Below, piece after piece: positions 19,586-63,089 of a DNA stretch of 64,000 nucleotides; the stretch's first letter is position 1, and each line of letters starts with the position of its first letter. The position numbers and the translations under genes are program-made. Below the pieces are notes generated by a model, which saw only the letters and a program-made list of their open reading frames with translations, was not told where the DNA came from and made no database searches. The stretch is taken from contig OZ020514.1 of NCBI GenBank assembly GCA_963971425.1, positions 28,012,602 through 28,076,601 on the forward strand. Reading direction: 5' to 3'. This stretch comes from Bryoerythrophyllum caledonicum. Its lineage: Eukaryota; Streptophyta; Bryopsida; Pottiales; Pottiaceae.

Positions 19586-19822
19586 AACACCATATTCAGT
19601 ATATTGGGAGATTTCCAGGACTCTGAAAGGTATGAATGGTTTTCCCAATAGTAATCATTTGTGCACATTCAAGTTGACTTGAGCTAAATATGTATCCATA
19701 TTATATGTACAGGACAAATTTAATTATATAAATTTACTAAACATTTGCATCTTTAGGTCGATTTAAGCTTCATGTAATATTTTGGGAGGCTCCCAATCTT
19801 CCAATATATTGAATATGGTGTT
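19586..19822. mobile_element. MITE-like foldback element, 237 bp, with CCAA target duplication
   Basis: The left end begins AACACCATATTCAGTATA and the right end is its reverse complement with few mismatches, giving terminal inverted repeats of about 28 bp. CCAA lies directly outside both ends (19582-19585 and 19823-19826), consistent with a 4-bp target duplication. The interior has no coding capacity. The superfamily is not clear from the ends. Confidence 0.7.
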
Positions 19823-35244: not shown

Positions 35245-35247
35245 GAA

Positions 35248-37469: not shown

Positions 37470-38069
37470 TGCATGAATGTGTACTCTCGCTGGACCGATC
37501 AATCCATTTAGTACATGTCCAAGTATTGGCATGCTTATTCATGGCCATGGCGATGGTGCCTATGCACTTACTTGACGTCATTATGGCCGGAGGGCTCGAA
37601 TTTCACCATATCCTCACTCTATCGTGTTCTGAGAGCATTACAAGAGCGCCCCATGCGAGAATCCAAAGAACTTTTCTCTTGCCATCCTAGAATCATTTTT
37701 TTGAAGCTCTACTTTAAAGCAAGTCCTTGTATAATTCCTCGATTTCCAAACCTATAGGAGATCCGTTTTCACATGCTCCTCATGGCAGACCCTAAGTGCC
37801 GCTTCCTTGGAAGTTATTTCTCCAGCTTGATATCTCTACCAAAGTAAAACAATAATCAACTTCTCATGGAGTTTGGCTTATTTTTTACATCAAAGCAAAT
37901 TTTCAAAGAGGTCATCATGGAATTCTTGATTGTTGGTCACATTCTTGAGGATATTGAGATACATTTTAGTTTCCTTTCTAAGTTCATCAAACAAAATAAT
38001 ACCTACTATTTTATTGACCTCATGAAAGCATTTTATGGACTCATTGAGGATTGTCACCTCCATACTTGA
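37470..38069 (+). pseudogene. DUF7869-like family fragment, copy 1
   Basis: Two blocks match the minus-strand copy at 54.8-57.2 kb in order. A block around 37.5-37.7 kb reads YLTSLWPEGSNFTISSLYRV, equivalent to THYAPTLWPGDSNTTIFSL there. The second block contains FLIVGHILEDIE (VGH at 37932) followed by FSFLSKFIKQNNTYYF and DLMKAF. VGHTHEDID is the signature I associate with DUF7869, an uncharacterised eukaryotic family often present in many copies. Between the blocks the frame is broken. The biochemical role is unknown; multicopy occurrence suggests a mobile or formerly mobile origin. Confidence 0.6.
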
Positions 38070-41000
38070 GCTTGTGTAAGAGGTTGCGGATTTTATGAGT
38101 AATATTGATGCCTACCAAGGATCCGTGGTCGGCAAGGAGCCAATTGAAATGCTCTCCGCTTACATAAAATTGGTGACCTTGAATGAAATAATCAACCAGG
38201 TCCTACAACAAGATCTGGCAGCAGTTGAATTGTAGGCAACACTTAGGAAGCAATATGTCAATTATCAACCTAGTATAGATATGATCAGTTGTCACCTTCA
38301 TCTCTACAATTGAGTGAGATGCTTGCAGCCTCCAAAGACACTACAATAGTGGTCTTTACCTTCATTGGAAAATGCTGGGACTTTGGAGGGCCATTTAGTG
38401 TAAGATAGCTAACGGTGCATATACAAAATGATTCTGCACACTACTTCCAATTAGAGACCATTTTCCCTTTTCATCTTTTGGTCCAACACTCCCTTGCAAC
38501 AATTTTCTTGGTTTCCTTTTCTTCTTTTAAAGATATCCACCATTTAATTCTGAATCTCCCATAACTATCTCCTAAATTTAGACTAAAGCACTAAAATTTG
38601 ATCAATCGAGTCGAAAAGGACATGTCCGGTGCTTGGATGGTAGAGGACAAAATTCCCAAGTACAATGTTTGGAAATGGATTGAAGAATAACTTTAGACGG
38701 TTAAATTTAGCCTTTAGGGCCACAAAAAGGGTTTGCATTGTGGTCTTCTTCATGGATAACTATTTAAATGCCATTAATGTCATCAAGCGATCCAAACTGC
38801 AAGCATGATCTGATAGTTGAATCTAAATAGGCATCTAGATCCTCTCCAATTTCATTAAAAATTATGGAGAAATGAGCAATATTCATCATTCTATGATGTG
38901 CCTATGCAAATGGATAAAAAAATGGTTTTTAGGAGTAAGAGGGATTGGTGGTGTTGGTGGCAAATTATTTGGAGGAGCTTGATATGGTATTGATGGAGGT
39001 TCTATGGATGGAGATGGTGTATCAAGTGATGATAGAGTAAAGCAGTGATCTTTGGCACTAGTTTTTCTTCTATTTCTTGAACTATCCACACTTGTAGCAG
39101 AGTTACTACCACTCTTATTCAATTTCCTCTTGTTTCAATTGTTATGCCTTACTTTCTTTTTACACACCAAATAGGTCTACTTCCTCTCGTGCATTAAAAT
39201 TTAATACACTTGGTACAATAGCTTCTCTAATTAAATCTACTTTTTGGAAAAAAAATTGAATATCCCCATCTAAATGTGGATTCTCATTTTCACTTTCTAC
39301 AGTTACTTATTTGATGAATTTTTCTAGAAAGATACTGTCTTCTACACTAGCGCAAAACAAGGACTTTGGATGTTGGGATTGGAGGCTCCCAAGAGGCAGC
39401 TCTTGTTTTCGTTTCCTTTCATAGAGGCTATTTTAGCTTTCTCTCTCTCCTCCATTTTCATGCCTTTGCATTTTTTACTCTGCCGTGGTTGTGTGTTGGG
39501 CAAATTGGAAGTGTCACTTCTTGGGTCGTGCTCATTGTCTTCAAATGTTTCATAGGAAGTTGTCTTGTTGTAGATGTAAACTAAGACAATTAGCACGGAA
39601 ATTACTTTGCTACGTTAAGGATATGTAATTAGACTGGCTATCAAGTGTAGATGTAGACAATTGGTCAAATATGAATACACGAGATGAGTTTGGTATTGAT
39701 TCGGAGGACCTGTAGAGTATCCATTTTGATGCCTCTAGGATATCCATCCACATTGCAATCTACGTATACTAACAGAGCTTCTTTCGGATATCAATAGAAA
39801 GTATCAACCGATTATTGACTTTGATGCCTTGAATGTTACAGATCCTTTGCGTGGAGGATATCCATCCATTAGCAATGAAGGCTTTAAATGTACAGAACAA
39901 GGTATAAAGCTTGCAATGTGCAAGAGTATCTACTCTATATAAAACATGATATCGTCCAAACAGTCACGAAGGGAAATGTATCGAGTGGCCAAGTAGGGTA
40001 TGTTCCCAATAGTCCTGTAAGACATTGACTTTGCTCCCAAATAGGATATTGATGACATGGAAAATAGGGTATTGATTGAGTTGGACAATAGATTATAAAT
40101 TGCGTTGGCCATCAGGATTCAATCTAGTTGGCCAACAGGGTATCAATTGAAGTTGCTAGCAAAATATCCATTAAAGTGGCCATCAAGATATAGTCTTACA
40201 CAAACAAGGTCGTATGGACTTCTGGGGAGGCGCTGTATTGTTGGATCTTATGCAATGCATGTCCATTTTCATAATAATTTTGTTTACCTTGTTATTTAAT
40301 AAATATTAAAATATTTTGGAGAATATTTATCATCTAGAAAAAATTAAAATACAATATACTACTCGTAGTTTCAAGTTTAGGTTGACCTCTGAATTATTCT
40401 AAGATAGTTTATTCATATTTTCATTTAATAAAAACAAGCTTCATTTAGCAATTCAAATAGAATGAAATATTTTACAAACTAGATTCTATCATTTCATAAC
40501 TCTTTTCTCCTATTCATCAATGAAAACTTATACAACTTGATGAACTAAAAGGAGAAGAAATTATTAACAATACAATGTATTAATCTCCATTTTCCTTTTG
40601 GTGTCTTTGTGAACTACCACATCCAATGCTTCTAAAGTCCATGCCCCCGTCCTGAATAGTCTGCATTGCACTTTGACATTTCTTCAAACCTATGGTGGCA
40701 TACTACTGCAAGAAACCATGCAACTGTGATGTTCGAAACTCTTTTACTTATATTATATATTGTGTTGACCTACTACTTCTTGTAATATGAGCACGGATAT
40801 CTTTTTTCCACTCTCTAAACTATTTAGTACTCCCAACTACAATTTTAATTCATGGCCCTCTTTGTTTGGACACATTGTCCTTGAGTTCATATGCAAAACA
40901 TACCTTTTCAACTCCTTGTACTTGTTCCAACACCAATGATTCCAAATGCTTAGATAAGATACATATTGTGCTTCCATTAAAGTACATTCCGTTCAACTTT

Positions 41001-42296
41001 ATAACTTCAATTTGCACACATTTCACTGAATTGGTACACAATCTTGTCTATAATTTGTTTCACAATCTATTGCAATGGCACTTATCTCACACAAATTATT
41101 ATTTATAATGTCCACTTTGCAGTGAGGTTATCTATGGCTTTTAGAAACACCGCAAACATAAAAGCCTCCACACCCTATACAGATTCAAATTTGAGGATTG
41201 AAAACGAGTTGCATATCAAACTCAAGGGTGAACAATAGAATGTACAAGTATGTACCTCACTTTGACACCGCCTTCTCTTGTTGGGATCCTGTACTTCAAT
41301 GAGATAATCAAAGCCCCACATGACCATTGCCTCCTCTGTAAAGTCTACGTCTTGACAGTGTCTAGAGTTTTGACTCTTTTGTTAGGCTGCTTTGTTCAAT
41401 GCATTACTATTACACAAAACTTAAATACTTTCATTTCTCAACCATTTGCATCCTGTTTATTTATAATAGACCCCTCCAAGGTGATGCTTGCAGCTTCATT
41501 TTGGAGTTTTGAAACTATTCCTAGTCTTGCCCTAAGCAACAAGACTACTTAGTTTCTTGAGACGCATCAACCATATGTCTTTGTATGCAACCAATTGGTA
41601 CTTGATGTGCAATATGCAACACAATCAATGCAAAGAGAAATATCAGTGCTTCATTAAACGGTGGGTTCTTTAGATACTTCACCAAACTCGTACCTATTGT
41701 AAGAACAATGTACAACTTCGAATGTTCATTATCATAGTCTGAAATGTAGAAGTGCACCAAATACTTTGTAGACAATGAGAACAATATCTGCACTGTCATT
41801 TTCTCTATAATTGTGATACGCCCGAGGACTTCAATTACAAAACTCTTTAAGCAAACTAATTCAAGCCCTAGCAAACTATACATCTGATCTCAAAATATAT
41901 TGATCACATGCAGTCATTATTCACTTTGTACCGAAGTAATTGCACCACACTATGGTCTATCCCCAAGTTGAAATAGAGATTTTCATACAATGAGTAGAAT
42001 CCAGTACAACCAGTACAAACTTTGCAAAATTAGGAATCCCTAAGATATCGACGACTTTGATAATTTGGAGCAAATCGTAGCCATTGTACACATTGTATAT
42101 TGTCGCATGTCTCACACAATCTATTCATGATTAGGTCGAGTTATGCAACAAGTGGTGTGCTTAAGATCAATCCAAGGAAGGGATTTATGGTTGATGCAAC
42201 TCAGATAGTCTCTAGGGTTTTTAGATTACTGTGTTTGCATGTTTAGTTTGTAGATTTTATTTTAGTACTTTGTTAAGATTGCTTCTTCTGCTGCCA
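38070..42296. other. No gene seen; AT-rich DNA with short unsupported frames
   Basis: Open frames of 60-112 codons occur on both strands. The two most protein-like are minus-strand: 39122-38886, Pro/Ser-rich, and 39596-39342, Lys/Glu-rich with a KKCKGMKMEEREKAK stretch. Neither has a recognisable domain. Around 39.75-40.2 kb TATCCAT/TATCAAT-type words recur irregularly. I see no clear element ends. Confidence 0.35.
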
Positions 42297-44620
42297 ATGG
42301 CAAATGCTCGCAATGCGAGTAGGCATGTGGGAACAAAGAGGAAGGGTCCTCGTTTGAGGGCTCCGGAACACGATAAATCTCTACAAAGTCTAAGAAAATG
42401 GAAGGCAGAGCAAAAAATAAAACGTCCATAACTACAGGGAAGAGAGAAGAAGAGTCAAGATTGCATGCCAGTACCTCGTCGAACATTTCACTCGTCGACA
42501 AGGTAGTGAAATGTCCTCATGCGAACTATGACGTGTTGTATCCAAGATCCTGAATTTTTTCTTGTATATGATGCAAGCTTGTTCAATGACATCTTTAATG
42601 CTGAAGATCATGGAGTGTTTTTTTAAAAGATGAGCCCACCAAGCCTTTCCTTCTAGAGAATTATCCCTACAAATAAGATGCACAAGTTCAGTTAAATTTT
42701 TTATAGAATTATAAATAGGAGTTGGAGGCTATCAAAGGTGTTGAACCTGCAGACAAGCTTGCCACGAAGAGTGTACCTCTAGATGCAATTGTATCTAGAA
42801 ATGCGACTAACATAAAAGCATTGTCTAGGATGTTGAAGGTAAATCCTACAAACTTAAGGTTACCCCACTTATTTAACAATTCTTGGCAAAATTATTGGAT
42901 ATTTTTTTTTACAAATTTTTGCTTCAACTTGTATGGTTACTATCTGGGTTGAACTCACTTATTCTCATGTTTTCTTATAGTTTTTGCACTTTCGTGCAAA
43001 CCGCTTTTTACAACAGATTTGTAAAAACGCATCCTCAAGTTGCAATTAAGCTTAGGACTTTTGAAAAATTGAAGCTATATTTTGTACGAGCTTGCAATGA
43101 GATGAACGTACGTTGCTGTCGCTACTACGTTGAGTTTAATATGCTTAGAAACGGATTGAATTGCATTTGAGATGCACGAAAAGGAATCCACATCCTCCAA
43201 GACTGCAAGTGCGAGTGTACAACTTGTCGATTTCAAATTGATGAAGATAATTGATAATCCCATTATGAGATATATGCTGGAGCAACATCACTTTCACAAA
43301 AGATTGTTTGCTCTAAAGTAGAGAATTTGAAGTGGTATGCATTGTCATGCGTCATGGTTACGTGCAAGGATTGTGGTATTTGGATGTTGTTGGTTTACCC
43401 CCTAAAATTTTTGGCATCGACAACTGTTACATGGAAGTGTTTTGAGAATAAAGTCATTGGACTCACTTCGGAGAGGAAAACAAAGAAGAGGATTGTAGAG
43501 GCATACAAGGAGACCTCCGCTTAAGTATATTTTTGAATACTTGAAGTCGAAATTGCCCGAGTTTTTCCAACACAATTTCATTGTACGATGGCATAATGAC
43601 GACTGCAAGTTGTCAATGAAATGCTTGTGTGAAGACATGATTCTATCCCATATTGACTATGCGGAGAACTACACTTTTAAGATTCAAGACCAAATACAAA
43701 GCATGTATCGGTGCCCAACACAAATTAGTGTCCTTGTACACATTAGGTACATGATCAATAAAAAAGGAGATATCGTCAAGGATTCTCATTTCTATATATC
43801 AGATGATGACAAGTATGCTTTCCTCTTTGGTCAACACTGTTTAATGCAACACAGGTAATGGCTGTAGTCTTAAGATAAGTTACTACATTTTTTTCCTACG
43901 CCGTTCAAAAAACGTGTAGATATATAATATATAAATTGTATATACATACACACTATGTACAAATGCGTACACTATGTACAAAATACTTAGTTTGACAAGG
44001 ATTAGAAGGCACCAACGTTTGTTTGTAAATTTTGTCTTTGTAGGTATTTGCCCAAAATACCATATTGAATGGTCTGACAGATGTGCATGCCCGTTCAAGG
44101 GTGCCTAAGCGTTTTACTTCATTGTAAGATATTTTGGCCTAACCTATGGTTGTTCCGTGAGTTGGAATTATTTGGTCTACGGCACGGAAAGGAGGAATGA
44201 GATTGTGAACGTGTTGTTGTCAAACGTACTTATGCAATCTCAACTACATGACATATTGAAAAGGATGCAAAACACACATGACGCAATATCTTTTCTAAAT
44301 TGAGATGATGGATGGGCCAACATATACGAATTTTAAGAAGATGGGCATTAAGGAAGCTAACAAATATTTTTGAAAAAATTCCAAAGATTGCATGAGGAAA
44401 CTTAGTTTTAACCGCGAGACGATAAATAGTTCTCAAGCTCTTCATTTAATCTACTCATTTTTTGTAGCTGATCCAACCTTGCTATTTGTTTGGAAATTGT
44501 CATGCTTTTGTGCATATTGCTTTGATGTTGATTGCACTAATTGTGTCAATAAATCTCATGTTTAGGGTTGGGAATTGGTGAAATTAAAACCATCAAACCT
44601 TACTGACGTATGAGAGCACA
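42297..44620 (+). pseudogene. DUF7869-like family gene, copy 2, most extensive plus-strand copy, decayed
   Basis: From the ATG at 42297 the product starts MANARNASRHVGTKRKGPRL, like copy 4 at 59519. Aligned exon-1 sequence runs to about 42860 with stops. The intron acceptor AG of copy 4 is AA here (42998-42999). Exon 2 begins FYNRFVKTHP and contains YFVRACNEMNVRCCRYYVEF. Later come YALSCVMVTCKDCGIW, DYAENYTF (43655-43678), FYISDDDKYAF and, after a likely second intron (43855-44043), WSDRC...FKGA and SCFCAYCFDVDCTNC. This order (DxAENY, YISDD, WSDGC, C-X-C cluster) is typical of the uncharacterised family I link to DUF7869. Stops and frameshifts make it inactive. An RNase H-like transposase origin is possible but not proven. 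Confidence 0.7.
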
Positions 44621-44639
44621 TGCCAATAAAGTAAAGGGC

Positions 44640-46780
44640 ACGAGCCTTACTTGCAAAGTGAATATCATCAACTTGTCGGACAAAACATTCAAGCTATGGC
44701 AAGAAGTCATTTCCGCAGCCGCTCATGGAGACGTCATCGACGTTGACTAGAAAGGATACCCGATGCCAAAGTTCAAGGACACCAACTTTTGGGTTACAAA
44801 GAAAAATGGAGTGCTTAATCGCAAGTTCTTCAAATTTCTAGGCTATACGTCCGAGGTTGACCTTGCAAAGATGTGCAAGCACTTTGTGGCTGAATTTGTC
44901 CCCGAAGGTTGTTTTCAAGCAACCTCTGAATGTAGTCGAGGATTGCTATTTCGTAAAGGACTAGTTTGAACGGAAGAAGAACAAAGAGGTTGTGCGTGCG
45001 GGGTTCAACATCATCGATGCGGAGCTAAAATTGTTCAACAACCACGGAGATTACTATATGTTTAGATGGAAGAAGTTCAAGACCAAGTACAACGTGTCCA
45101 AGACTTTGATGCGTGTCCTCCTGGACTTAGATTAGCCGGATTTGTACTATGCAAATGCAAAGCAGACCAAATTCCGGATTTGTACATATGAGGACCTCCC
45201 TCCTTGCGCCAAAAAATTCTTTTGAGTCTTTCTTCATGAAAGGGCAGAGATCGTCGAAGCACTTGTGGCTTTGTACTTCCGTGGCTGCTTGTGCCGGATT
45301 TTGTGCGAATGCTCTTTTTCTCAAGAAACATCTTACTATAATCCCCGTTGTGAAGAAGGTGTATAGAGCTTTGGGGCTTTTGTTATACAAAAGTCATCGG
45401 AAATACAACAAGCTTAAGTATCCCATGCATTTGAACGAGCTTAGAATGGTGTTCATCATCAAGGTGCTCCAACTCTTCAGAAAACAAGATAAAGCAATGG
45501 TGGAGATGTTTTCGGGGATGAAGCTGTAGAGCGCTTGTGTGGTAAGTCAACGTTTGCTTTAGCTCAAATCGAGCTAAATTCCAGCAACCGTTATACCATG
45601 CTAAACCTTGCTATCTTACTGCTCCCATATCTAACCATGTTTTGGATGTTTTTTAGATCATTTTTTGAGTAGTTTTGATTTCAAGTCTTTTTCTTTCTAT
45701 CATTAATATTGCACTACTTTAGTTTGAATCAAGCTAAAGTGCAGCAAAAACAACCTCTTCTATCTGCGCTTTCTTGTGAGGCCAAGGATTACAAAAAATA
45801 ATATAGTAGTACTACATGTTGGAACAAGCCATTATGTGTGCACTTTAGCTAGACCCGAGCTAAAGTGCACATTGACCCGTCTGCTAGACATTCTTGATGG
45901 TTTATATGAGCTGACCAAAGGTGTATTATATGTGCATGTTTCTTCGTGCCCAAATGTTGAACTTGGAGGCTTTCTACATTGCGTACACAAACAAGGAGTT
46001 GGATTTTGACGAGGTCATAGAGGTTGGGTTGATGCTTGACGGGAAAGATTTCTTGGTCAATGGATATCACGTGAATATGATGATTTTCCCACTCCTTGGC
46101 AAGGCCCGTCTAAAGGAGAAAGGAAAAGTGGGCGACGGCGTGTAAGATAATGACAAGATTTGGAGCAGTATTGGAGGAACTTTAAGCCTAAGCGCAAGAA
46201 CCTTGGCAGCTAAGTCAGATGATGACTTTGACGACATTGCTCCTCTAAAACATGATAGCAAGACGCATTCCAAAGTCGGTGAAACCATAGGTGTCAGCTG
46301 TCAGCGCATGTGCCCTCATCGTCTAGACTTTCCAGAGTTGGACTTGTCGGTCATCAACGAAAGACGTCGTTCATCTATTGTGTTGGGCAAACCATCTAGT
46401 TTGCCTCAATGGAAAAGAAACAACGTCATCGGCACAACGGCCAACTCTCTTTTGGCCTTTGCAAGCACTATAGGAGAGGAAACTTGGTTTAGCATCCTCT
46501 AGAAAATGCTCAAAGAGGAGGCCCTATTACGTACATTGATGGTGTAGTGTATGGCAGAGCGCGACGAAGAGATGAGAGGGCTTAGGCGCAGCGGGACGAG
46601 GACATGAAGAATTTGCAAGCAAAGCAACATGACGAGATGATGACAATGTTGAAGTCGCTTGACACCAAGCTTTTGCCTCCGATACAGCATGCTCCAATCG
46701 TTGAGCGTCCACACTCCTCGGAAGAAGGGAGCGATAGTCAATCTGATGGCTCTCTTCAGCAGCCCTTAGCTACTCAATGA
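44640..46780 (+). pseudogene. Decayed gene of unknown family directly after copy 2
   Basis: A coherent plus-strand protein is visible through frame changes. It includes VNIINLSDKTFKLWQEVI, then KFFKFLGYTSEVDLAKMCKHF (45-kb region, 68-codon frame at 44763), then RWKKFKTKYNVSK, then a 126-codon frame at 45149-45529 containing KKVYRALGLLLYKSHRKY. A GTAAGT donor-like site at 45541 follows, and the next 350 bp look intronic. A second part at 45921-46145 and 46203-46502 continues, and the final piece ends in an acidic, Ser-rich tail near 46779 (EEGSDSQSDGSLQQPL). Stops include TAG near 44750. No domain is recognised. Whether it was once fused to copy 2 is uncertain. Confidence 0.45.
45838..45870. 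repeat. Perfect hairpin with 13-bp arms and related hairpins nearby
   Basis: GTGCACTTTAGCT and its reverse complement flank a 7-nt loop. Related dyads (TTTAGCTcaaatcGAGCTAAA near 45559 and CTTTAGtttgaatcaagCTAAAG near 45718) are followed by (G/T)CAGCAA, so the motif recurs about every 120-160 bp. A weaker version is near 47010. All lie in intron-like or intergenic DNA. Confidence 0.75.
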
Positions 46781-47149
46781 GGCTTCGAGCAGCTACTGTT
46801 CGCACTTTGGTATTGCCAGCTTATACATCCCCTTTGGCATTGTTCATTCTTGCTCAATCATACAGAGATATGCCGAACTCATTGTTAAGTTAATCCCCCA
46901 AAGATTTAGTATAACGTAGGCTTGTTTTTTAGGTGAAGTATTTTTGAAAATGTCAAATTTTGTACAAACTTTTGTTGTATATATTACGACGAGATTGTTG
47001 AGCACTTTTGCTCGACTTGAGCTAGACTGCTCCATATTTGTAACTTTCGTTTGTACCAATCTCTATAATGAATGGGTGTAGATAGTTGTGAAGTTGAAAT
47101 GTCTAGATTTAGGTTTTGATAATGAAGTCATTGCCCCCACAATCATAGA

Positions 47150-47778
47150 AGAGGTCATTCAAGCTCTTGTCTCAGTCGTAAAAAAGGTCGTCCATGCCGT
47201 TGTTGTCCGAGAGCTCCCTCCTCTCATCCCACGGATACGACTTCAACTTGTTGAAGAATACATCAATGACCTTAACAACTTCTAGGATTCTTTGGGATCT
47301 ATGGGGGTCTCGATAGAAACTCACTGGCACGATGAATTTCTTGAGGTATTTATCCCTACACACCTTACACTTCATCACCCTCCCGTTTCAATTTGCATGT
47401 AGCGTTATGTAATTTTTTGAACGATCTATGCTTGAAGAAGTAATGCCGTTCTCTCCTTTGGCATTTTAAACCAAGTCTGCAAGGCATCAATAAGTGATGC
47501 GAGTATTGTAGAAGAAATATCTAAAGTCCCATCACATTTCACCCGCAGGTGTTTAGTGTTGTGCTCAACCTCAATGGGATTCTATGTACGTGTGAGCTTG
47601 CATAGTAGGCCAGAGGATTCAAGAACTCTGACTTCTCTATGCACTCGCCTACGTTACTAATCGAAGTAGCGTAGAGGGTACGCTTAAAGTGTTTCGAATT
47701 TCTCACGAAGTTGTCTAGGTTTGCTGTTGTCAGGATTTGGAGAATGATGATGGCATCTACAACCATGGAGATATGCAA
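47150..47778 (-). pseudogene. Minus-strand coding relic, family unknown
   Basis: Minus-strand frames 47778-47539 (79 codons; TANLDNFVRNSKHFKRTLYA, then ECIEKSEFLNPLAYYASSHV) and 47378-47172 (68 codons; FIVPVSFYRDPHRSQRILEV, then KVIDVFFNKL) have consistent protein-like composition and the same strand. They are probably parts of one broken gene. No domain is known to me. It is opposed to the flanking plus-strand relics, so it is probably a separate insertion. Confidence 0.4.
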
Positions 47779-47931
47779 ATATCTTTTTCAACATTGTCCT
47801 ACTATCCTATCATGATCTTAGGTTGGGAGAATTGTGATAGGGTTTCGGAGCGTAGGATCAGTGCCAGGACAATCTACAGAAAGGAACATGGCACTCAGAA
47901 GGACATCTAATAGAAGACGCTGTCAAACCAT

Positions 47932-48267
47932 TTGTTTAATGGGTCGGGTGGTGAATATACACCGGCAAATACGCTTATCATTGACAATAGCCCAAATAAG
48001 CACATGCTTGAATTTCTAAAAGAAGTCCTCTTACTTCCAACTTGGTCGCACAATCATGATGGTGTCAAAGAGGATTTGGTTCTAGTGGAGGAATTGTTGC
48101 CCTCTCTCATTGACCTTCATTTGTTGGGTGGCGGTCTAGCGCAATCTCAATTTGAACATCCTTCATATCATGACATATTCTGTAATGATCAAGAGATATG
48201 TGGTCAATTCACGGACATCTCAAATGCAATTGAAGCCTCTAAGATTGTGCGTTGTTCAAGCCGTTAG
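47932..48267 (+). pseudogene. C-terminal fragment of an FCP1/NIF (SCP-like) phosphatase domain
   Basis: The frame reads GGEYTPANTLIIDNSPNKHM, then LLLPTWS, then an acidic spacer and LVLVEELLPSLIDLHLLGG. In the FCP1/NLI-interacting phosphatase family (HAD superfamily; dephosphorylates protein serines such as in the RNA polymerase II tail) the late motif is LxxDNSP or LxxDDSP, followed by a D..L..LLP.L..L helix. This matches well. The catalytic DxDxT motif would lie upstream and is not found; upstream sequence is in other frames with stops near 47910. The frame has no proper ATG (TTG at its start) and ends at 48267. It is therefore a fragment. Confidence 0.55.
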
Positions 48268-48324
48268 GAATGCTTAGATCTCTTACGGTTTGGGTCAACA
48301 AGGGCTAAATTGTATTAATGATGT

Positions 48325-48540
48325 ACTTAACTATTTCTAGACTTTGCAAAGTCCAGAAATAAGGAAGAAGGATTTTTTGTTTAGTAAAATATTGGCACCA
48401 AAAAAATTGAATAGAATACTCAGTGAATAAATTTTCATCAACCATCCGGATATCTCCCAATGATTTTAGTAATACGAAACGAACCAATGATAGTGATGCA
48501 AAATATAAAACAAGCGTGGAATTTCCTTAGTCACGATTGT
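48325..48540 (+). repeat. Repeat family terminal segment, copy 1, with 30-bp palindrome
   Basis: This segment matches 62440-62650 in the same orientation: a GACTTTGCAAAGTC palindrome centre, AAGGAAGAAGGATTTT, AAAATATTGGCACCAAA, CCGGATATCTCC and AACAAGCGT. The palindrome spans 48332-48361, with one mismatched pair. The segment is probably the terminus of the repeat family at 62.4-64 kb. Confidence 0.85.
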
Positions 48541-50089: not shown

Positions 50090-51444
50090 AGCTCGCCTAT
50101 CCGTGAACAAAGATCTCCAAATACCATAATCACTGCAATTCTAATGAAAAATCCGCCCCTAACATCTGCAACGGACAAAAGGACTGACCACTGGTTTCTC
50201 CGAGCCATCAAAATGAAGAGGCGGAGAGCCAGAATATGGAGTATATGCCGCAGTGTCGCCCAAAGAAACGTCAAGTAGCATCACTCTTGGATCGTCCTCA
50301 TCTAACCGTTCACTACGGAGCTCTTCCATTCAATGCGTTAGATATACGGTGAATAGTCACACTATCTAAATTTCTTGTTGTATAGTAGTTGAATCTCGAA
50401 AAGTCATCCACGTCCTCGTAGAAGTGGACCGGAGATCACCGACTCTGAAGTCGATTGAAGTTCGGCTCCGAGTATAACATCCCTCCCTTCAACTCCCGCA
50501 AGTCATCTTGAAGATAAGCGGAGCCGAGCTCTTGCATTCACTTCCATTAAGATACGTAGAATAGTGAAAGTGTCACAATTGTCTAGTGTATGGCAGCGGA
50601 ATACCAAAAGTCCCGCACGTCTCACCGGAAGCAGACGGGAGATCTCTGACTGTTTATTCCATAGAAGTTTCGCTTCTCTTTGACTTTGATAGTTGACAAC
50701 GGCCGCCATAATGCCGGATGTTATCTTTAAGATTGGTGGAGGGAAGGACTTCCATATGCTGCCATGTACAATAGGTGAAATTACGATCGGAGATCTCCAG
50801 ATAAGATAATCACATCTACCATTGTCTAGAATGGGGTCCGTAATAGAAAGAGAGCCCACGTTCATGACAGTACTCAGGCGAACTGAAGAGCACATAATCA
50901 AATCCGGAGATCTCCACCGAGTAAGAAACTGCCATTCATCTCTAGATGGTACTTCAACCAGATTACAGTGAGTAGCTACATGAATAATATAGTCTCTGGG
51001 CCCAACGGAATTTGCCTTACTCAAGTCCACAGGGGGTTGCTGTCTTCATTGCTCGCGGAATAGGCCACATCTTCAGGTAGAAAACTTCTCACATAGTTGC
51101 AAATCACTCAGGCTTCCTCCTGGCAGGTTCCTTTGTAGATTTTAAACAGGCCAGTGCTGAAATGGAAAGGAGCGGTCAAAGACCCAGTACATATCAATCA
51201 TCCGAGTACCTCTCTATAGTTCAACGGATACTATAAGGTTGGCGGCAGAGATAGTACTCCAAATAGGGTATTACTACAAAACGCATGACGCGTGGCTAAC
51301 CATGCCTAATTTTCCATATTATTGAGTCATGACTATGGAATCTACCTTGATTATTTTAATCTCGATGTAATGGCAACTAAAATCAATGACAGTTTCTCTA
51401 CCTACGATCGAGGTATGTAATGAATGGGTGGGTAGGGAGGAGAG

Positions 51445-51452
51445 TATAAAAA
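51445..51452 (+). promoter_or_regulatory. TATA box of repeat family B
   Basis: TATAAAAA lies in a block (GGGTGGGTAGGGAGGAGAG upstream, GGGTTCAAG downstream) that is conserved in the inverted copy, where the equivalent is TATAAGAG at 63405-63412. It is about 90 bp before the conserved ATG at 51537, a normal spacing for a plant promoter and 5' leader. Confidence 0.65.
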
Positions 51453-51536
51453 GGGGTTCAAGAATGCAATCCTCCCTCTGTTTTGTCGTCCAACGTAAAG
51501 TCTTGTTAGTCTAGAGCCAGGGTGGAGAGAGAGGAG

Positions 51537-51955
51537 ATGGCTACCGCAAGTAGGAAGAGGGAGAGGTAAGATACGGATTCAGTAGAGAAGAGAGTTACAC
51601 GTAGGATGGAAAGCAACGTTGAGGAAGTAGAGAAAGGAAGAGATTTTGTTACAGGACGACAGCGGGTACACAAGATAGTACTGTTCTAAACGGCATGTTT
51701 TGGACAAAGTGGAGGACGAGGAGGGGATCAAATATGAAGAAGAGGACAAGGACGAGATTGCCTATGAAGGGGAGGACGAGAAAGAGATCAACTCTGAGTT
51801 TGAGGAGGACCTCAATGGAGATATATTGGCTGAAGTAGAGGAGGAGGACCACCCGTGGTATGCAGATGAGGAGGAATCTTACTCGGAGGGCGGTTGTAGC
51901 CCATTTCAAACTAGATATGACACAGGGTCCAATGTTAATTTGAGACGTGTACTGT
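51537..51955 (+). pseudogene. Acidic ORF of repeat family B, nonsense and frameshift mutated
   Basis: The ATG at 51537 starts MATASRKRER, matching MAFASRKRER in the inverted copy. The next codon is TAA here but GAA there, so this copy has a nonsense mutation. The frame later shifts, and the 85-codon frame at 51700-51957 carries a Glu/Asp-rich stretch ending EEDHPWYADEEES and then CSPFQTRYDTGSNVNL. A basic start followed by a long acidic region suggests a nuclear or DNA/histone-interacting protein, but this is inference. No enzyme domain. The function is unknown. Confidence 0.55.
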
Positions 51956-51959
51956 AGAG

Positions 51960-53608
51960 CCAAAATTCCAAAAATAACTTGTTTCAAAAAATTAAGTGTA
52001 AAAAGGATTGTAGATATATGGAGAATTAAATAATTAATGCTTAAGTTTACACTAAGTGGTTAATTAATTAAAAAGTACCTATTCATATCCAAGAATTAGG
52101 AAATAATGGGAAAAGGGTTGAACTCGCACCCTTTGGAAAGGGAGTACCTTTTCATGAATAGATATGAATAGATGTGAAGATTTAATGGAATTAATCTTAA
52201 TGGTTAATGATAAGGAAAACCTCTTGCCAACATGTTTGCCTCTAGGATGTAGAGTAGAATGACTAGCTTTAATTTTTAGCATTCTTTGCCATTACCATAG
52301 TAATTCCTTGGAGGAAGGTTGGAGTGAGCCCTAGCTTTAGGTGAAAAAGCTAGTTGATGACTCTTAATGTTGTAAGAGTACTTAATTTTATACATATATA
52401 TAATTATTATTGAATTTGCATATGTAGAGTCTTGTGTGTGACTTGAGTCATATGTATAATTGCAATAATATGTGATCTTCATTGACTAAATTTGACATTG
52501 TGTTTTATAAATGCAAGTGTATGCATTAGGTATTAATTGTGGATAAAATTCCTATGCATGAATGCATTATATATTTATTCTTCATGGAATAAGTTAGGGA
52601 AATACCCTTACTATTAAGGTTGTGTGTGTGACCTTGTGTGTATTGGAGTATTAATCATAAGTGTGAGGTTTAATGGAGTTAATACAAAATTAAGTGACTT
52701 AATGCATAAGGAGAGTGGTGCATAAGTACTTATTAGGATCTTAAGTGTGAGTGAACATAAGTTACTTGAGAATATTAAGAATAAGAGTGGAGTTTTTATT
52801 CATGTTAATGCTATTTATGCAATAAACATCAAGAGTCTTAATGCCTTAACGGAAGGGAATTATTGCATAAATAGCATTCATGCATAGGAATCAGGAGTCT
52901 TAATTGCCATGCATTAAGTGACTTAATGCCTTAACGGAAGGGATTATATAAGGTAGGCTAATTTGTGAGCATTATAAAGAATCTATCATAAGAGAATAAG
53001 TAAGGTACAAATACTTAAGGAAGACTTAAGCAAGAGCATAGAAACTTAAAAATATTTAATCCAAGTTTGAACAACATAAGTTTATGAAGATTAAGACCTT
53101 AACTACCAGCAGACCCTTAAGTTTAAGAGCTTGGACTTAAAGGTGTATATGGGTGAGAACATGGGACATCAGTTGCATTAAGTAATATGCACTCCCTCTT
53201 TTGGTAGTCTTAAGTCGGAAACTTAAGAACATGGTTATGTTGATTTGGTCTAAACTGTGCGTGTTCTTAAAAGGATCAGTACTAAGTAAGAGTGTGAGTG
53301 CTTAAGAAACTTAAGACCAGAGGCTATGTCCTTAAGAATATAGAGCCGACCACGAGTGAAGTCTTAAGTAATAGTCATATATTTTAAAGACTAAGTATTA
53401 CGGCTTATGGAGGATAAGTGTAAGTGTAGGATAGTGTTTGTCTTAGAGAGTTAAACATGGATGAGTGAAGTTAAGTGGAGATTTAAGAAGTGAATTCATT
53501 AAGACTTAAGTTAACTTGTATGTGTGATTTTTGAAACTAACCCTTGTATTAAGTACGTGATCACGTGGATCAAGTGGACAGACGTGAGAAGTGGATCGAA
53601 TTGCATGA
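51960..53608. other. TTAAG/CTTAA-dense tract, non-coding
   Basis: From about 52.6 to 53.56 kb the pentamers TTAAG and CTTAA recur far more than base composition would suggest, in both orientations, without a fixed period. A block CTTAATGCCTTAACGGAAGG is present twice (from about 52839 and 52920). No coding frame is supported. The density suggests decay of an old satellite or cryptic simplicity. Confidence 0.55.
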
Positions 53609-53667
53609 GGTTTAGGGTTTAGGGTTTAGGGTTTAATGCAAACCTAGGTTTAGGGTTTAGGGTTTAA
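53609..53667 (+). repeat. Interstitial plant-type telomeric repeats (TTTAGGG)
   Basis: Three to four TTTAGGG units at 53609-53634 and two to three at 53647-53667, separated by a 12-bp spacer. TTTAGGG is the Arabidopsis-type telomere repeat of most plants and many green algae, which supports the plant assignment. It can also act as a telo-box in promoters, but no gene is adjacent. Confidence 0.9.
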
Positions 53668-54820
53668 ACTTGAATTATTAAAGGGCTTAATTAAGGAACC
53701 AATGCAATGAGAATTAATGGAATTTTCCATTAGCCCATCGTGGCATATGTTTAGGAGTTAGTGGTATAAGCACAATCTTAAATGGACTAATGTTCCTTCT
53801 TAAGGCACGAGAGATCCTTTGGAGTTATACTTTGAAGGTGGATCCCTGAAGAATGATGCGAACAGTCCTAATTTTCTAAAATATGGATAAATAACCTTAA
53901 AAACTAACCGAGAGGATAGATTTAACTATAGAATTAAGCTTCAATTACTTAAAACTAGGCGTATGATCATCCCCGTAACAAATCCTATGAAATGTGGGTA
54001 TACTTGGGTGTTTTGTTGGAGTGGTAAAAAATCACTCTACATGTACGCATTGCCACACTTGAAAGATGCTTAGAGCTCTCTAGAGAGGTAGTGTCATGAT
54101 AGAAATTGTTGTAAGATTCAAGAGATTTCTTTGAGATTAGTCACATGTGTCTAATAGACTTACCGTTGTATCAGACGATGTTGTAAAGAGAGCCCACTGT
54201 ACACATACTTGACTCAAACGTCTTTATAATCAACATATTGTCACTTGCTTGAACATTCGCACCTACAGTTCTACTCTTCATGGTGTTGTTACAAGATGAC
54301 AATGAGCAACTAGATAGAATGGTAAGCCCTCAGGGATCAGCGGCATTTTCTTTCTCTAAATTTGCAATTGTTGCTTTCTTCATTTTACGCGGAATGTACC
54401 TTGTAAGTAGGTTAACTTTGCTTGAACAAGTCGCAAAAAACATAGAACTCACATGACACCATACAAGCTTCTCTTGGTCCGGAATTCATGTAGCTTTCCA
54501 ACAGTCCTGGTACTTCCCCTTTTTAGATTCTTCTGCTTGTTATCTGGCTCCCGATACTTAAGAGAAATTGTCTTGGTTGGCATTTCCTTCATCTCTGATG
54601 ACGTCGAAAAATACTCTACTCTGCCAAACAGGGTAGATGTTCGAATTACTAGGTCTTAAACCCAAGACCCCTGACGAATGTCACGCCAAGGATTAAAAGT
54701 GGACTTTAAGGCTTCATAGGGGGGTTTGCAGTAAGGCTCTAAAACCTCATCTTCAAAAGTGATATCTAATGGTTGTGGAAGCAATCCTAGGGGATCCCCA
54801 CCTCCCTTGTGGGGGCTTCC
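53668..54820. other. No gene seen
   Basis: Mixed-composition DNA with a 68-codon plus-strand frame at 54453-54659 lacking any recognised feature. No repeat ends were noticed. Confidence 0.45.
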
Positions 54821-57226
54821 TTAATCATGGCACAGCCAGAATCCTTCTTTGAGTTTGCAGGGCATCTCAGAAAGTGGCTTGTCAAGCTCGTCGATGACGT
54901 CCTTCCAATCTTGCACATATAGGCGGTTGGACTCTCCATACCCTCCGCACTTAGACTTTCCATATGCCCAGTAGTCCACGTACTTCTGGAGCCTTGTCTT
55001 TATGAAATTTTTGTTCTCCGTCGCTTTTCCTGGTCTTGTCTCTGGCAACATCTCGGTTTCCGACTGGATTTTGCTCCTCATTACTCCACATGGGCTTGAA
55101 TGGGACGGGCTTGGAATGTCCACATTCCTCTTCCTTTTAGAGTTTCATCGGCTGTTTATTCATGGGTAATCACTTTGCGTCAACGGTAGATTGCTTGATT
55201 TTCATAATAGGCACACCGTCATTGTCAAAGTAGAACTTGAAAAGATGCATCTCACTTATTCCCACTAGGAGTGTCGCCCCGCTGCATATGTAGACTTTGA
55301 CGTACAATTTAAAGTCGGCCACCTCTTGGATAACTTTGGGCATGAAGGCTAGTTTTTGTGACTTCATGAAAGCCTTCATGAGATCGGCTAGAATACATGT
55401 ACTACTTTTCTTAAGTTCTTTTTATAGATGACTAAGTAAGCATCAATATCTTCATACGTATGTCCGACCACCTAGAAGCCGATCTAATATCCTTGAAAAT
55501 AATTCAAGCAATTAACAGTGACAAGAATGCCATAAAATATTGGTCCTTGTTGTCTTTTGCTGAGTTGTTGAGCTGCAGAAATCATTTTGGTGGCAAGGAT
55601 TTTGGTCCCCTGAAAGCACTCAGCTCCACGGGCTCTAAAGCATCAACGCACGTGTTCTTCCCTTACATGAGCGCTTTGAACATTGAATTTGTATGTGGGT
55701 GCTTGAAAAGAGCGTGCGTCTCATGTAGTGGTGTTCCCTCAAGCCGCGTAAAATGTTTTGCTAGAGAGAAGATGGTGGTGTTTGAATCTCCAGGCCATAA
55801 AGTAGGAGCGTAGTGTGTATACGCTCCGTTGACATGATCGTGCACCACTATTTCAGTGACATTTATAAGAAGCTATTCGAGACTAGATGTTGCCATAGTA
55901 GTCCTCCACATGCGTGGAAGAGCTGTCTTTGTAGTGTCCATCTTGTCGTAAATGACACAAAGAAAGGTCCATCTTGTCGTGAATGACACAAAGAAAAGCG
56001 AGCGTGCCCTTTGGAGTCGTCAGTAAGAATTGGTTGAACTCATTGCAAGTACTGTATTTTGCGAAGGTGCTTCCAGATGACTTGATAGCAACATGTCCAA
56101 AGAATTCCTCTCTGACCCTGCAAACCGTGGAATGACTTAGAGGTGGTAGTCTATAGAAGTTGTTTGTCTGCAAAATGAAACAATACCCTAGTGAGAGGAG
56201 AATTTCTGAAGAATAATCCAATAGACAGTGCAAAATACAGAGGTAATCAATTGAAGGTCCATGCATGTTAGCAAAGATCAAGCCGGAGAACTTCGGTTGA
56301 GATACTACGACTTTGGATGACTCATGATAGAGATTACAAGTTCATATCAATATGCAAGGATTGATTAAGTACCTCATTAACGTTGGCACGTATTTACTTC
56401 CAATTATTTCCAGGCGGAAGATACTTGAGAGTGTCAATCAGACGATTTTGACACTCCGCATTTGGTGAGGCATTTGATCCGCATTGTCATTAATAATGGA
56501 CGTCATTGTCCCCATGGCTTATACAATGGCAAGCCGTGGGCACTTATGCCCTTGTTACCATGAGTAGCATAGATAATTCATCTATTGAAGTGTCCCATGT
56601 ACGTGTGAAACGTGGGTTTTTGTATTCCATGGGTCGTGTACCATGCAACGGAACAAACCTCCGTTCCCAAGAGCGTGACGTATTTTCTCTTCCAGTCCTC
56701 ATCAATGGAGTAAAACTGCTCGCCTACCAAGATCGCATACTTCTTTCTCTCTTCGAAGGATTTGTCATAGAATTTTTGTCTAACAGATAGAGTTCGGGAT
56801 TGTAGAAAATATTGGCAGCAACGTTTCAGACAACACCTTTCCGAGCTGACCTTGCAAATTTTGTCGTTGGTAGTCCTCTTGGAGTCGTGGTGTACAAAGA
56901 GTCCTTGTTTATATCTTGCTGTCAAGAAATGAAGCAGTATGGCTCTATTGGATAACCCCCCAAATGAGCATCAGAATTATGTGGTAATGGCCGGGATGCA
57001 AAATGATAATTTTTATGTCAATGACCGGCCGGAAGGGAAACAACATTCCAAAATTGTGCCACAATTCATGACCCGTAATTCTCTTCTTGTTCTCAATAAA
57101 AACGTCTAGGATCGTTACACCGATGTTATCTTCATCCAACCAATTAGTACGGAAATGATCTGTTGGAAACGTGGCTATGATTCTCTGAGAGCAGAGTAGC
57201 AACCCATTTCCGTCCAACCGCTGCAC
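54821..57226 (-). pseudogene. DUF7869-like family gene, copy 3 (minus strand), fullest domain order
   Basis: Read on the minus strand the blocks are as follows. At 57226-56945: TGHELWHNFGMLFPFRP. At 56925-56578: a cysteine cluster (CCLKRCCQYF), then TEVCSVAWYTTHGIQKPTF, the N-terminal pattern of this family. At 56281-55883: KYSTCNEFNQFLLTTPKG. At 55848-55663: HDHVNGAYTHYAPTLWPGD and KHFTRLEGTPLHETHALF. Next, after a frame change, LQLNNSAKDNKDQYFMAF and VVGHTYEDID (55442-55471), the DUF7869 signature. The C-terminal pieces at 55379-55170 and 55123-54821 end with YGESNRLYVQDWKDVI. At least five stops or frameshifts are present. The function is unknown; family-wide multicopy behaviour suggests transposon ancestry. 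Confidence 0.72.
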
Positions 57227-57269
57227 TTCAAGTCCAACTCAACTTTCTTGCGGTACAAATAGAGAATTG

Positions 57270-58110
57270 TCTGACCAAAGATCTCCAGATGGAATTATAG
57301 CAGCTGCCCTTCTTCAGAAGACGGTCCACAGAAGTGTATGAACAAGTGAATTGTACCCGTGTTCAAAGGAAATGTGTGGTAAATTTTCCGCCATGGAAAT
57401 GGCCGTTGGTCTAAGTAACTCAAACTCCCTTGAACCAACTGGTATGTCAACTTCAAGTTGTCGCCCTACTGGGTGAACCTCAACAATGGACGCTACTCAA
57501 ATCTTGCCAAAACCCAGCCTTTTAAGATTCACGGACATTCCTGACTGCAGAAGTTCCGAGCTTCCTGTAGACTCTTGGGATGGTTCATTGTCTTCCGTGT
57601 AATTCACATGTCTATAATTGGAGCACTCAGCTGTGACCATGGCAAGTTCGTCTGGGTCATGCTCCCACCACTAAGAGTCAAATATACTTTCGTGCTGCAT
57701 CGGTAGATCCTTGGTTGGTGGCAGATGCCCTCAAATGGGAGTATCAGTGGATGTGGATACAAACTTGATGATCAAACTTAATGTCAAAGACTAGCCAAAG
57801 ATCTCTGAATGACCGAAGACAAATCTACGACCACTCCGACGACAAAGTAGGGAGGAGTTGAAAGTGCCAGGCATATTCAACCAAAGATCTTTGATTAAAT
57901 AGAACCAGGTCGCCGACCACACTTACAAGCCTGAAGATGAAGCACTGCTGATCACGTAGAAATTTTGGGACTATTGTAGCCGGAGATAACATGCGTGAGT
58001 CCAATATGGTAGCCACTAGTTTCAGGGAGAGCAACCAGTTTTAGCTGATGAACTAACAGAAAAGCCAGACTTGCACGGCTTGAACAGTTGGAGATCTATG
58101 TTTGGCTTTT
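57270..58110. repeat. GATCTCC-motif region related to repeat family B
   Basis: ACCAAAGATCTCC-type words recur at about 57279, 57799, 57884 (GATCTTTG variant) and 58090 (GGAGATCTATG). Similar words mark family B at 50.1-51 kb and 62.5-63.95 kb. The sequence between them is not clearly alignable by eye, so membership in the family is tentative. A 69-codon minus-strand frame (58034-57825) is unsupported. Confidence 0.4.
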
Positions 58111-59518
58111 GTTAATATGTTGAGGTCGTAAAAGAAGCACTTGCCATACTGAATTTTGCGGAATAGGCAGAGAGGTCCAGTTAGAAACGCGCGGACAAGA
58201 GCTCTAGAGCTCACACCAAGCAATTACAACATCTTATATTCGGAGTTGAAAAAAATCAAGGCTTCTAGGCTATGACAATATTAGCAAAGATAAATTAGTT
58301 ACAAAAGCACTACACAATAGTTTCTAAACGACTAAAAGTTCAAAATGCAACACAATCTTGACCATTCCTCACTAGAAGATAGCGGATACGGAATCATACG
58401 AGCAAACATACGTGACATACCTGGAATAATGTCAAATCGTTGCATTGCACTTTACTACCACAAATTTGCATACACGAATGCTCTCACTAGCGCGCTCAGC
58501 TCCCACAGTATCCCAAACCGCTAGTACGAAAAAGGATGAGAGATGAGTTGAAGAATACTCTTATCCACCCTCCCCAACACCTCTTAGAGGGAAAATTTAG
58601 ACGCTCAAATTTGAAACGGATCTTGGGCATGCATGCTCGTTCAACCTAATTGATGTACACCATCATGATAGTGCGCATTCTTCAACATGCCTACGACCAA
58701 GGCCACATTGCACTCATGATAATGAAAGGCTCATACTCTTGGGATGATCGTATTGTAAAGAAACCATGCCGTTCCTTGAGTGCTGCTCATTGAAAAAATA
58801 AAAATGAAGTATGCCCCATGATGTTTTTTTGTAGAAACTAGGGCCATAAAACGTCATAGACTATAACACAATGTAATGTAATTGTATTGGACTTTAGGTA
58901 TTCACCTTTGTGAATGAAATAATACCACACCCCAGAGAAAAAATTTGTCTTCTTTTGTCCATTAATCATATTCAAGGGTGAATGCACACTACGGTCGACC
59001 CCCTGGCCGTTTTTGGTTCTCCAATACAAATAGATCAACGAGTACAACTGGTATGAAATTATGGATCCCAAATATGCCGGCAAATCTGTGTATATTTGGA
59101 AAAGCGTGCACGTCGTGCACATGGTGTGTTTGTCGTATCTTCTGACAGTTGACAATTCTTTTTCGTTCACATGATTATTGCCAAAAATGTACTCTCTTCT
59201 TACTGTTTGTACATTCTTTGTATAGTTGATCAATGTCGATATAGAATGTATGCTCTTCGTAGATTTAGTGCTTTAGCCACCTTGATTTTTGGTCTAGGGT
59301 TGTGAAGACATCGACTTGTTTAGAGATGAAGGCAATGTGCTCATCATTTAGGGCACTGTGTTTGACGTGTTTCTGATTGTAAGTGGATTTAGGGGATGAA
59401 TTGTACAGAGATGATGGCAATGTACATGAGATTGATGGCGGTTTGAGGTGAAGTGTTGACAGCGATAGACTAGTATTTCATTGCTTTTTAGAGTAGACGG
59501 TTGTCAGCGTTAAGGGCA
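58111..59518. other. No certain gene
   Basis: A 131-codon minus-strand frame at 59233-58838 has no recognisable domain and atypical composition. At 59.3-59.45 kb a short imperfect direct repeat (AGAGATGAAGGCAATGT / AGAGATGATGGCAATGT) precedes copy 4, possibly in its 5' leader or promoter. No clear TATA box was chosen. Confidence 0.35.
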
Positions 59519-60717
59519 ATGGGAAATAATCGTGTTGTAGATAAACGTGCGGGATCAAAAAGGAAGGGTCCTCGTGCAAGGGCTGAGGAGTACGTTGCAA
59601 CTAGAGATAGTTTGAGAGATGGGGAAGCAGATAGACAACAGAGACGTCGGCAACTGCAGAAGGAGAGAGAAGAAGAAGCAAGATTGCTTGCCACTACCTC
59701 TGAAAATGGAGAAGAAGGTAGTGAGTTGTCTTCACGCAAAGTATGTCATGTTGTATCCGAGATCGTGAATTTTTTCACCACTAAGATGCAAGCTTGTCCT
59801 ACCGCATCTTCAAGACTGAAGATCAAGGAGTGTTTTTTGGAGGATGAGTGCATCAGGTTATTCCTTCCAGAATATTACCTTTGTAAACAAGATGCAATGG
59901 TTCAATTTCAATTTTTGGAGAACCATCAAAAAGAGTTAGAGGCCGTTAAGGGTTTTCAATCAGCAGACAAGCTTGCTAGGAAGGTTGTTCTTCTAGATGC
60001 AGCTATATCTTCAGATGTAAAAATCATAAAAGCTTTGTCTATGATTTTAAAGGTGAATCCATATAACTTAAGGGTAGCATCACAACGCAAGAGTATGCGT
60101 TTGGGCAACATGCCTTTTGTATTGGCAAGTCCAAAGAAGAGGCCAGGTATGTCTGAAGAAATTAGAGACATCGTTGTAAAATGTTGGATTGGAGAAACTC
60201 GCGTAAGTCCCAACAAGAAGGAGATTGTTCAAAAGTGGATAAGTCAGAAGACATACGAAAAACACTGCATCCAGTACTTGCTTGAAACTCAAGTATGTAT
60301 ATTTTCTAGGCTTTAGTACATTCTGTATGGTTTTCATATTGTGCCAAATCTTTTATTTAACAGTTCGTTGCATTATATCTTCTTTCAACTATATTATGTA
60401 CAATTTAGTGTATGATGTATTTTTTTTATACCTTTCAGTACATTATGTATAAGTTTTATGCCATTTGTATCAATATTGTTCATAGTTTGATATCTTCTTA
60501 TAGTTTCTACACTTGTATGCAGACGACATTCTATAACAGATTTGTGGAAGCGCATCCTGATGTTGTAATAAAAATGAGAGCATTTGAAAAATTGAAGCCA
60601 TATTTTGTTAGAGCCTGTAATGAAAGGAATGTATGTTGTTGTCGCTACCATGTTGAGATTGACATGCTTAGAGAAGGGTTCAATAGAATTCAAAATACAA
60701 GAAAAAGACTTGTTTAG
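59519..60717 (+). CDS. DUF7869-like family gene, copy 4: two-exon N-terminal part, best-preserved copy
   Basis: Exon 1 (59519-60292, 258 codons) begins MGNNRVVDKRAGSKRKGP, matching copy 2. An ATG is preferred over the TTG six codons upstream. It has a basic Arg/Gln/Glu-rich coiled coil at about residues 25-55. An intron with GT (60293) and AG (60522) joins in phase 0 to exon 2 (60523-60717), giving ETQ-TTFYNRF, then FEKLKPYFVRACNERN and VCCCRYHVEIDML. This is the cysteine motif before the catalytic-like half of the family. The 322-residue product ends at TAG (60715). Since a duplicated segment 93 bp on has CAG at the same place, the stop is probably a recent mutation and the frame originally continued to 61071. 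The DxAENY half is missing downstream. Confidence 0.6.
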
Positions 60718-61074
60718 AAACTCATCACTTCCTACTTCCTATTGTGCACCGCTCAATCTGTATCTGTAGCAATGTCTTACCTTCCATTCGAAAACTCTAG
60801 ACTTGTACAGAAACTCATCACTTCTTCCTTCCCATTGTGCATCACTCGTCCTGTATTTGTGAATACAACAACTGATGAGTATGTTTTTGAAACCCCCGAA
60901 TCTCAGTGTGGCAATAGTGCCTTTTATCTAGGACTTTGTAATACTATAGACAACTCTCCTAGTCAAGCCATTAGGAGCAGTGAGGCATTGTTCGGGCACG
61001 TTGTGTTAGAAGATGCAGAAATCCTTCACCAATCTCCTACCACCACATGTGAATCAGCTAATCAGAGGACGTGA
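60700..61074 (+). pseudogene. In-frame continuation of copy 4 beyond the TAG, with a 93-bp tandem duplication
   Basis: The frame stays open for 118 codons after 60717. It contains RLV-stop-KLITSYFLLC, and 93 bp later RLVQKLITSSFPLC. The unit (starts 60718 and 60811) is duplicated in tandem with exactly 31 codons period, so the frame is conserved. The rest, to 61071, is Thr/Ser-rich and unlike any domain I know. Alternatively each TAG/CAG could serve as a splice acceptor, as both are followed by AAACTCATC. Confidence 0.5.
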
Positions 61075-62479: not shown

Positions 62480-63089
62480 AGGAAGAAGGATTTTAGTCTA
62501 CTAAAATATTGGCACCAAAGAAATTGAAAGGGATACCCAGTTAATATATTTTAATCATTCAGCCGGATATCTCCGGATGGTTTCAGTGATACGATACGAA
62601 TCGAATATAGTGATAGAACAAGCGTAAAATTTCGTTCGTCGTGATCGACAAAATGATAACAACTTTCAAGCTAACATGGTTATAAAACATACCATGTAAT
62701 ATGGTGTACTGTACATTTCAATGGTAATATCGTGTCGAAGATTAGTACAATGCATTTCAGAGCTTGAAGCATTGACATGTAAGGAATGCCGTTCAGCCAT
62801 CCGGAGATATCTGGTCGAAAGCAAAGTACTAAAGAAATAATTTCTCGGTTGTTCAAAAACGACAATTCTACTTCGAAAGGGAGTCTCTTTACAAAAGCGT
62901 CTCATATAAGAATGTACGAAAAAATTGTGACTAGTCTCAACGAAACTCCTGGATCTAACAACAAATTCTATCCTTGCACTACCTCTCTGAAGAGCTCTAA
63001 AGATCCTCCTGGTGTACCGGTGCGTACATGTCCGAATCGACATCAGACCCTGTGTCACACCCAGTTTGAAGTGGGCTACAGTAGCCCTC

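Follow-up and report, generated by a model that had tools for sequence, protein, structure and literature searches.

DUF7869 proteins as probable transposases of large DNA transposons in the moss Bryoerythrophyllum caledonicum

A 64,000-nucleotide stretch of the moss Bryoerythrophyllum caledonicum (the window; C1:28012602-28076601 in a genome assembly of 437 Mb and 894 contigs) contains four broken gene copies, c1 to c4, which an earlier note had assigned to one uncharacterised DUF7869-like family and suggested to be a DNA transposon or domesticated transposase lineage. Judged by their sequences, c1 (37.5-38.1 kb) and c3 (54.3-57.0 kb, minus strand) are broken DUF7869 genes, and c2 and c4 belong to a different multicopy family; all four are dead. 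We propose, with a probability of roughly 0.82, that DUF7869 forms the catalytic core of the DDD transposase that moves large DNA transposons bearing terminal inverted repeats (TIRs). Direct support comes from the predicted fold, the conserved residues, the element ends, the target site duplications (TSDs) and the long open frames inside elements bounded by TIRs and TSDs. In this genome the DUF7869 transposon looks like a large and recently active one. The value of the work lies in this function for DUF7869 and not in the dead window copies: a Pfam domain of unknown function gains a function that can be tested, together with a predicted fold and a set of likely catalytic residues, and many moss genes labelled “hypothetical” may be transposases. 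With its defined ends and targets and its many long open frames, the family is directly testable as a land-plant transposon system, as is the part played in it by the gene on the opposite strand.

Structure prediction of homologues, a check proposed in the earlier note, returned an RNase H fold for DUF7869. An AlphaFold2 model based on 95 homologues has RNase H topology with a conserved D-D-D arrangement, and its best structural matches are the RNase H catalytic cores of Mos1 and of retroviral integrases, a fold match to the RNase H-like DDE core. Foldseek found nothing at E <= 0.001 with this model, and a sequence search of the PDB gave no match to DUF7869. Aspartates are conserved at three sites in the 95 homologues, and a glutamate at position 494 occurs in only 34 of them. 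In protein P0040 the predicted metal site would comprise D330 or D333, D455, and D495 or D497. The suggestion that conserved acidic residues form such a site stands for DUF7869, on its predicted fold and aspartates; the residues originally listed mix two families (DxAENY and WSD come from c2; GHxxEDID comes from c3 and, altered, from c1). A C-terminal Tudor/BAH-like domain, to which there is a weak fold match, may read chromatin. A first model from 19 sequences (predicted local distance difference test score 58.3) was too weak and was discarded; its Foldseek list contained numerous Argonautes, none with an E value better than 0.1.

Relatives of these proteins are abundant in the genome. A DNA pattern for GHTYEDID gave 25 matches (control, 0), one of them c3 of the window, and the other 24 loci were taken at up to 10 kb each. 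A genome search with the Pfam profile PF25273 yielded 3,611 loose candidates, and all of the best 150, which were scored, lie over the cut-off; 69 are open for >= 1,000 codons and 10 have internal stops. The locus L018 has a 1,077-codon frame, open from stop to stop, that matches DUF7869 at E 8.5e-47 (159.7 bits). All-against-all comparison separated several subfamilies (A to D) and more distant members, with members of a subfamily about 87-96% identical and found in unrelated places. The named close relatives of the proteins are in Ceratodon purpureus (60%) and Physcomitrium patens (52-53%). None of 40 pattern matches in viral contigs was confirmed. In a collection of genome contigs 2 of 158 were (L084 and L085), both in metagenome-assembled bins labelled bacterial, and these are likely misbinned eukaryotic DNA; L084 has a 963-codon open frame of a DUF7869 relative on a contig binned as a cyanobacterium.

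Elements in the genome with DUF7869 frames of more than 1,000 codons end in AACACGCAATTAAGCAATT...AATTGCTTAATTGCGTGTT. The family A 3′ terminus, ATTGCTTAATTGCGTGTT, is identical over 18 bases in 32 of 38 copies and has one or two changes in the other 6, and beyond it the flanks differ. Because it was similarity reaching as far as this end that picked out most of the copies, it is the divergence of the flanks, and not the number of copies, that is evidence for it; the count leaves out L024, which has lost its 3′ part, and the diverged L031, and L057 and L058 share one flank. The 5′ end, AACACGCAATTAAGCAATTATGCACTTAGCC, was read in L079. Compared with the inverted 3′ terminus of its own element (L053) it has one difference in 31 bases, and compared with that of L018 two; GCAT flanks the L079 element on both sides. 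A TIR-less, retroposition-like element, with L018:561 as its 5′ end and apparently 5′-shortened copies, was considered and rejected, since other copies align further upstream and L079 has a 5′ TIR.

A genome-wide pattern search for exact ends, in which the tenth base outside had to be other than G so that ends with a G there are omitted, found 577 forward and 545 reverse ends (1,122 in all; control, 0). Among the first 100 ends listed there are 24 facing pairs within 26 kb, two of which (C2:3103772 and C2:3164168) appear to be copies of a single site. Exactly four flanking bases are equal in 18 of the 24, and in none more; with shuffled right flanks the mean was 1.46 and the maximum 6 in 2,000 trials. 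The duplicated bases vary (ACAT, TAAG, AAAG, CATC and others). Outside them C, A and C/T are favoured, with CAY at 37 of the 100 listed ends, and the 3′ side of family A mirrors this preference, with TG at flank positions 6-7 in 15 of 38 copies and ATG at positions 5-7 in 10 of 38. The target site is palindrome-like, CAY-NNNN-RTG. The shared inverted repeats and target duplications that the earlier note had proposed to look for are found in genomic DUF7869 relatives, with nothing convincing around the four window copies; for DUF7869 the inference of a transposase holds, on fold, aspartates, common boundaries, TIRs and TSDs.

The facing pairs are 2.2 to 25 kb long, and 9 of the 18 TSD-bearing pairs measure 12.3-14.5 kb. 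Four of the 18 enclose a scored DUF7869 match (Table 1), in every case some 1.6 kb from the 3′ end, and a similar distance of about 1.6 kb separates a scored match from each of four listed ends that have no listed partner (C1:61274817, C1:65151573, C2:3492886 and C2:13598081). The absence of a match in the other pairs is uninformative because only the best 150 of the 3,611 candidates were scored. One 12.5-kb element, C2:12224442-12236985, has in its 5′ part an opposite-strand frame with three in-frame stops, in a region read as L081-L083 (C2:12224430-12228930). This second gene, read in this one element, was met in one further locus, L023, at 68% DNA identity over 1,368 columns. By eye it contains WEPVDGQHIVAACKFA, which recalls ParB N-terminal domains, with VDGQHIVAA as the possible ParB-like motif; its pieces gave no match in Pfam, NCBIfam or the PDB.

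In the mechanism that we envisage, the DUF7869 transposase would bind TIRs of about 31 bp (5′-AACACGCAATTAAGCAATTATGCACTT), its RNase H metal site would cut the ends, and the cut ends would be joined across 4 bp in a CAY-NNNN-RTG target, so that 4 bp are duplicated. Shorter relatives that share these ends could be mobilised in trans, and the oppositely oriented gene of at least one long element may have an accessory role.

That such a second gene exists in one long element, and that shorter elements carry the same ends, would also fit if DUF7869 were a passenger and the elements were mobilised by some other enzyme, such as the product of that gene. We regard this as improbable: the D-D-D arrangement of an RNase H fold and the many long open frames belong to DUF7869, whereas the second gene has no Pfam match and is interrupted by in-frame stops in the copy that was read. 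Likewise improbable is a host gene family spread by gene duplication, in which the window copies would be simple pseudogenes without mobile ancestry. The DNA alignment of c3 with its relative L010 does end at the stop codon, and no ends were seen at the window copies, as that explanation would have it. Against it, dozens of family A copies have common ends, TSDs and unrelated flanks, by which it is already refuted for that family, and family D, to which the nearest relatives of c1 belong, has one common 3′ end, ...AAATATCCRTT, in all three copies read.

In the window itself, older DUF7869 subfamilies have left c1 and c3 as dead relics. A profile search of the segments, as the earlier note had advised, placed c1 over the Pfam cut-off of 26 (38.7 bits) and the c3 fragment alone below it (18.8 bits). 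DNA homology of c1 to family D relatives spans about 35247-38759; the region of the putative second catalytic aspartate is lost, the LDN-NKN motif is missing, and GHTHEDID reads GHILEDIE. Intact DUF7869 proteins match c3 piece by piece between 56871 and 55092, about 1.8 kb (tblastn, best E 1.3e-39), and the coding similarity of c3 to L010, 79-85% by block, ends with the stop codon near 54330. The copy has several stops and frame changes and retains GHTYEDID within 55439-55483; LQLNN replaces LQLDN, a D-to-N change at the putative second catalytic position. Around c1 to c4, neither scans with the termini of families A, C and D nor a search for AAC...GTT pairs bearing a TSD gave convincing ends, and a pair near c2 (37858/46891) that agrees in 15 of 20 bases and has equal flanks was taken as chance.

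Table 1. Features of the window (first five rows, window positions) and TSD-bearing pairs of ends that enclose a DUF7869 match (contig positions)
Feature	Position	Strand	Basis or remark
c1, broken DUF7869 transposase fragment	37501..38069	+	Pfam, DNA homology
c2, broken copy of second family	42225..44303	+	FVRACNE, DYAENYTF, YISDD, WSDRCACPFK
c3, broken DUF7869 transposase	54330..56970	-	motifs, tblastn, similarity to L010
c4, broken copy, same second family as c2	59492..60717	+	motifs, DNA likeness to c2
MITE-like element, 237 bp	19586..19822	.	termini AACACCATATTCA...TGAATATGGTGTT
Pair enclosing DUF7869	C1:11725227-11737820		
Pair enclosing DUF7869	C1:11757842-11772285		1,066-codon open frame
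Pair enclosing DUF7869	C1:62054685-62067046		
Pair enclosing DUF7869	C2:6750065-6763959		

The earlier note had rightly found motif-bearing frames at all four places, but they represent two families, and its ordered motif list turned out to be a composite: YFVRACNE is found in c2 and c4, DYAENYTF, YISDD and WSDRC in c2 only, and HDHVNGAY, LQLNNSAKDNKDQ and VGHTYEDID in c3 only. The shared intron position reduces to c2 and c4, which have the same arrangement of blocks and are interrupted by a gap at matching positions (two aligned DNA blocks, 71% and 76% identical), and was not seen across all four. By eye the overall layout of the copies is similar, with a basic start, a Cys motif and acidic motifs, as a single family would have it. 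That grouping was nevertheless rejected as very improbable: 143 DUF7869 proteins (P0001-P0143) gave no tblastn hit to c2 or c4 at E <= 1e-3, neither copy has a Pfam match over any cut-off, and hhalign gave a probability of 0.1 between the two family profiles, that of the second resting on a thin alignment of 8 sequences. The second family is marked by FVRACNE-CCCRYHVE, DFAENYTF and YISDD. Reading through c2 led to eight relatives (P0144-P0151), none with a precomputed Pfam domain, of which P0151 is the longest and has WSDGCAQQFK and AHGKGPHDGAGA further on. The family is multicopy, with 134 matches from the 133 scored of 290 candidates and many similar open copies. Because both families are abundant (3,611 loose PF25273 candidates, 290 for the second family), the clustering in the window would need no special cause.

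Some neighbouring repeats were also recorded. The window holds an element resembling a miniature inverted-repeat transposable element (MITE; Table 1), whose termini resemble those of family C with 5 and 8 mismatches in 30 and which has CCAA on both sides, a 4-bp TSD. On either side of c3 and c4 lie long inverted arms (50709-54191 and 62884-63995), in which segments of 52-267 nt are 74-83% complementary, and part of the same repeat adjoins the DUF7869 copy of L010. In L010 a 3.8-kb stretch interrupts the DUF7869 homology and contains a 667-codon open frame (1446-3446) with no Pfam match over the cut-off. Upstream of the gene in L018 there is a repeat of about 640 bp (2265-2908), with copies in L020, L024, L025, L030 and L032; it recurs several times in both orientations, and parts of it also lie outside the element. 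A family C element in L013 carries a 2.4-kb insertion (6133-8581) with inverted termini (CAGTAGGGTCCAAGGCAGAATGGCG...), apparently an unrelated DNA transposon.

Among known systems, Pfam PF25273 is filed as of unknown function; c1 scores over its cut-off, as do the intact relatives, and c3 aligns to its members. The RNase H core is like that of Tc1/mariner (Mos1) and retroviral integrases, but Tc1/mariner has a TA TSD, whereas DUF7869 elements have varied 4-bp TSDs and AACAC termini. piggyBac and Kolobok share the 4-bp length; both use a TTAA target, which the varying duplications found here do not follow. Ginger termini are TGT...ACA, unlike the AACAC...GTGTT of DUF7869 elements.

The closest likeness is to Sola, a superfamily that Bao et al. 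2009 reportedly defined by a 4-bp TSD and a DDD transposase. Both features are found here, the former in 18 of 24 facing pairs with none longer and the latter in conserved aspartates and a predicted fold. Sola1-3 are treated as one superfamily in Repbase (PMC4455052). Sola1-1_Ec32 of Ectocarpus is described as a giant DNA transposon with an opposite-strand gene that is ParB-like and includes a methyltransferase (PMC12477816). The element read here likewise has a second gene on the opposite strand, with a possible ParB-like motif noted by eye; the element is about 12.5 kb long against 21.5 kb, and no methyltransferase part was recognised in it. The open-licence literature searched contained no report of Sola2 in Physcomitrella, of Sola in the moss Physcomitrium, of transposons in the moss Ceratodon or of moss elements without TIRs. 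A DDD superfamily distinct from Sola, an independent transposase lineage with the same cut-and-paste mechanism, is unlikely. It would accord with the link to Sola being drawn from features and not from sequence, with Pfam and NCBIfam not calling DUF7869 a transposase, and with DUF7869 being unnamed in that literature; the 4-bp TSD and DDD signature, and a layout resembling what is described of Sola1-1_Ec32, speak against it. Quite unlikely as well is the compound view that DUF7869 is its own DDD-transposase superfamily apart from Sola, with large two-gene elements carrying a ParB-like accessory and recently active in mosses, and that the c2/c4 family (DFAENYTF / SDGCAQQFK / HGKGPHDGAGA) represents a further RNase H-like lineage of transposases that as yet has no name. 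The “little-described lineage” of the earlier note is therefore better put more softly, as elements whose features resemble Sola-1: likened by those features and not by transposase sequence, DUF7869 elements appear to work like Sola and are probably members of it (Sola-1).

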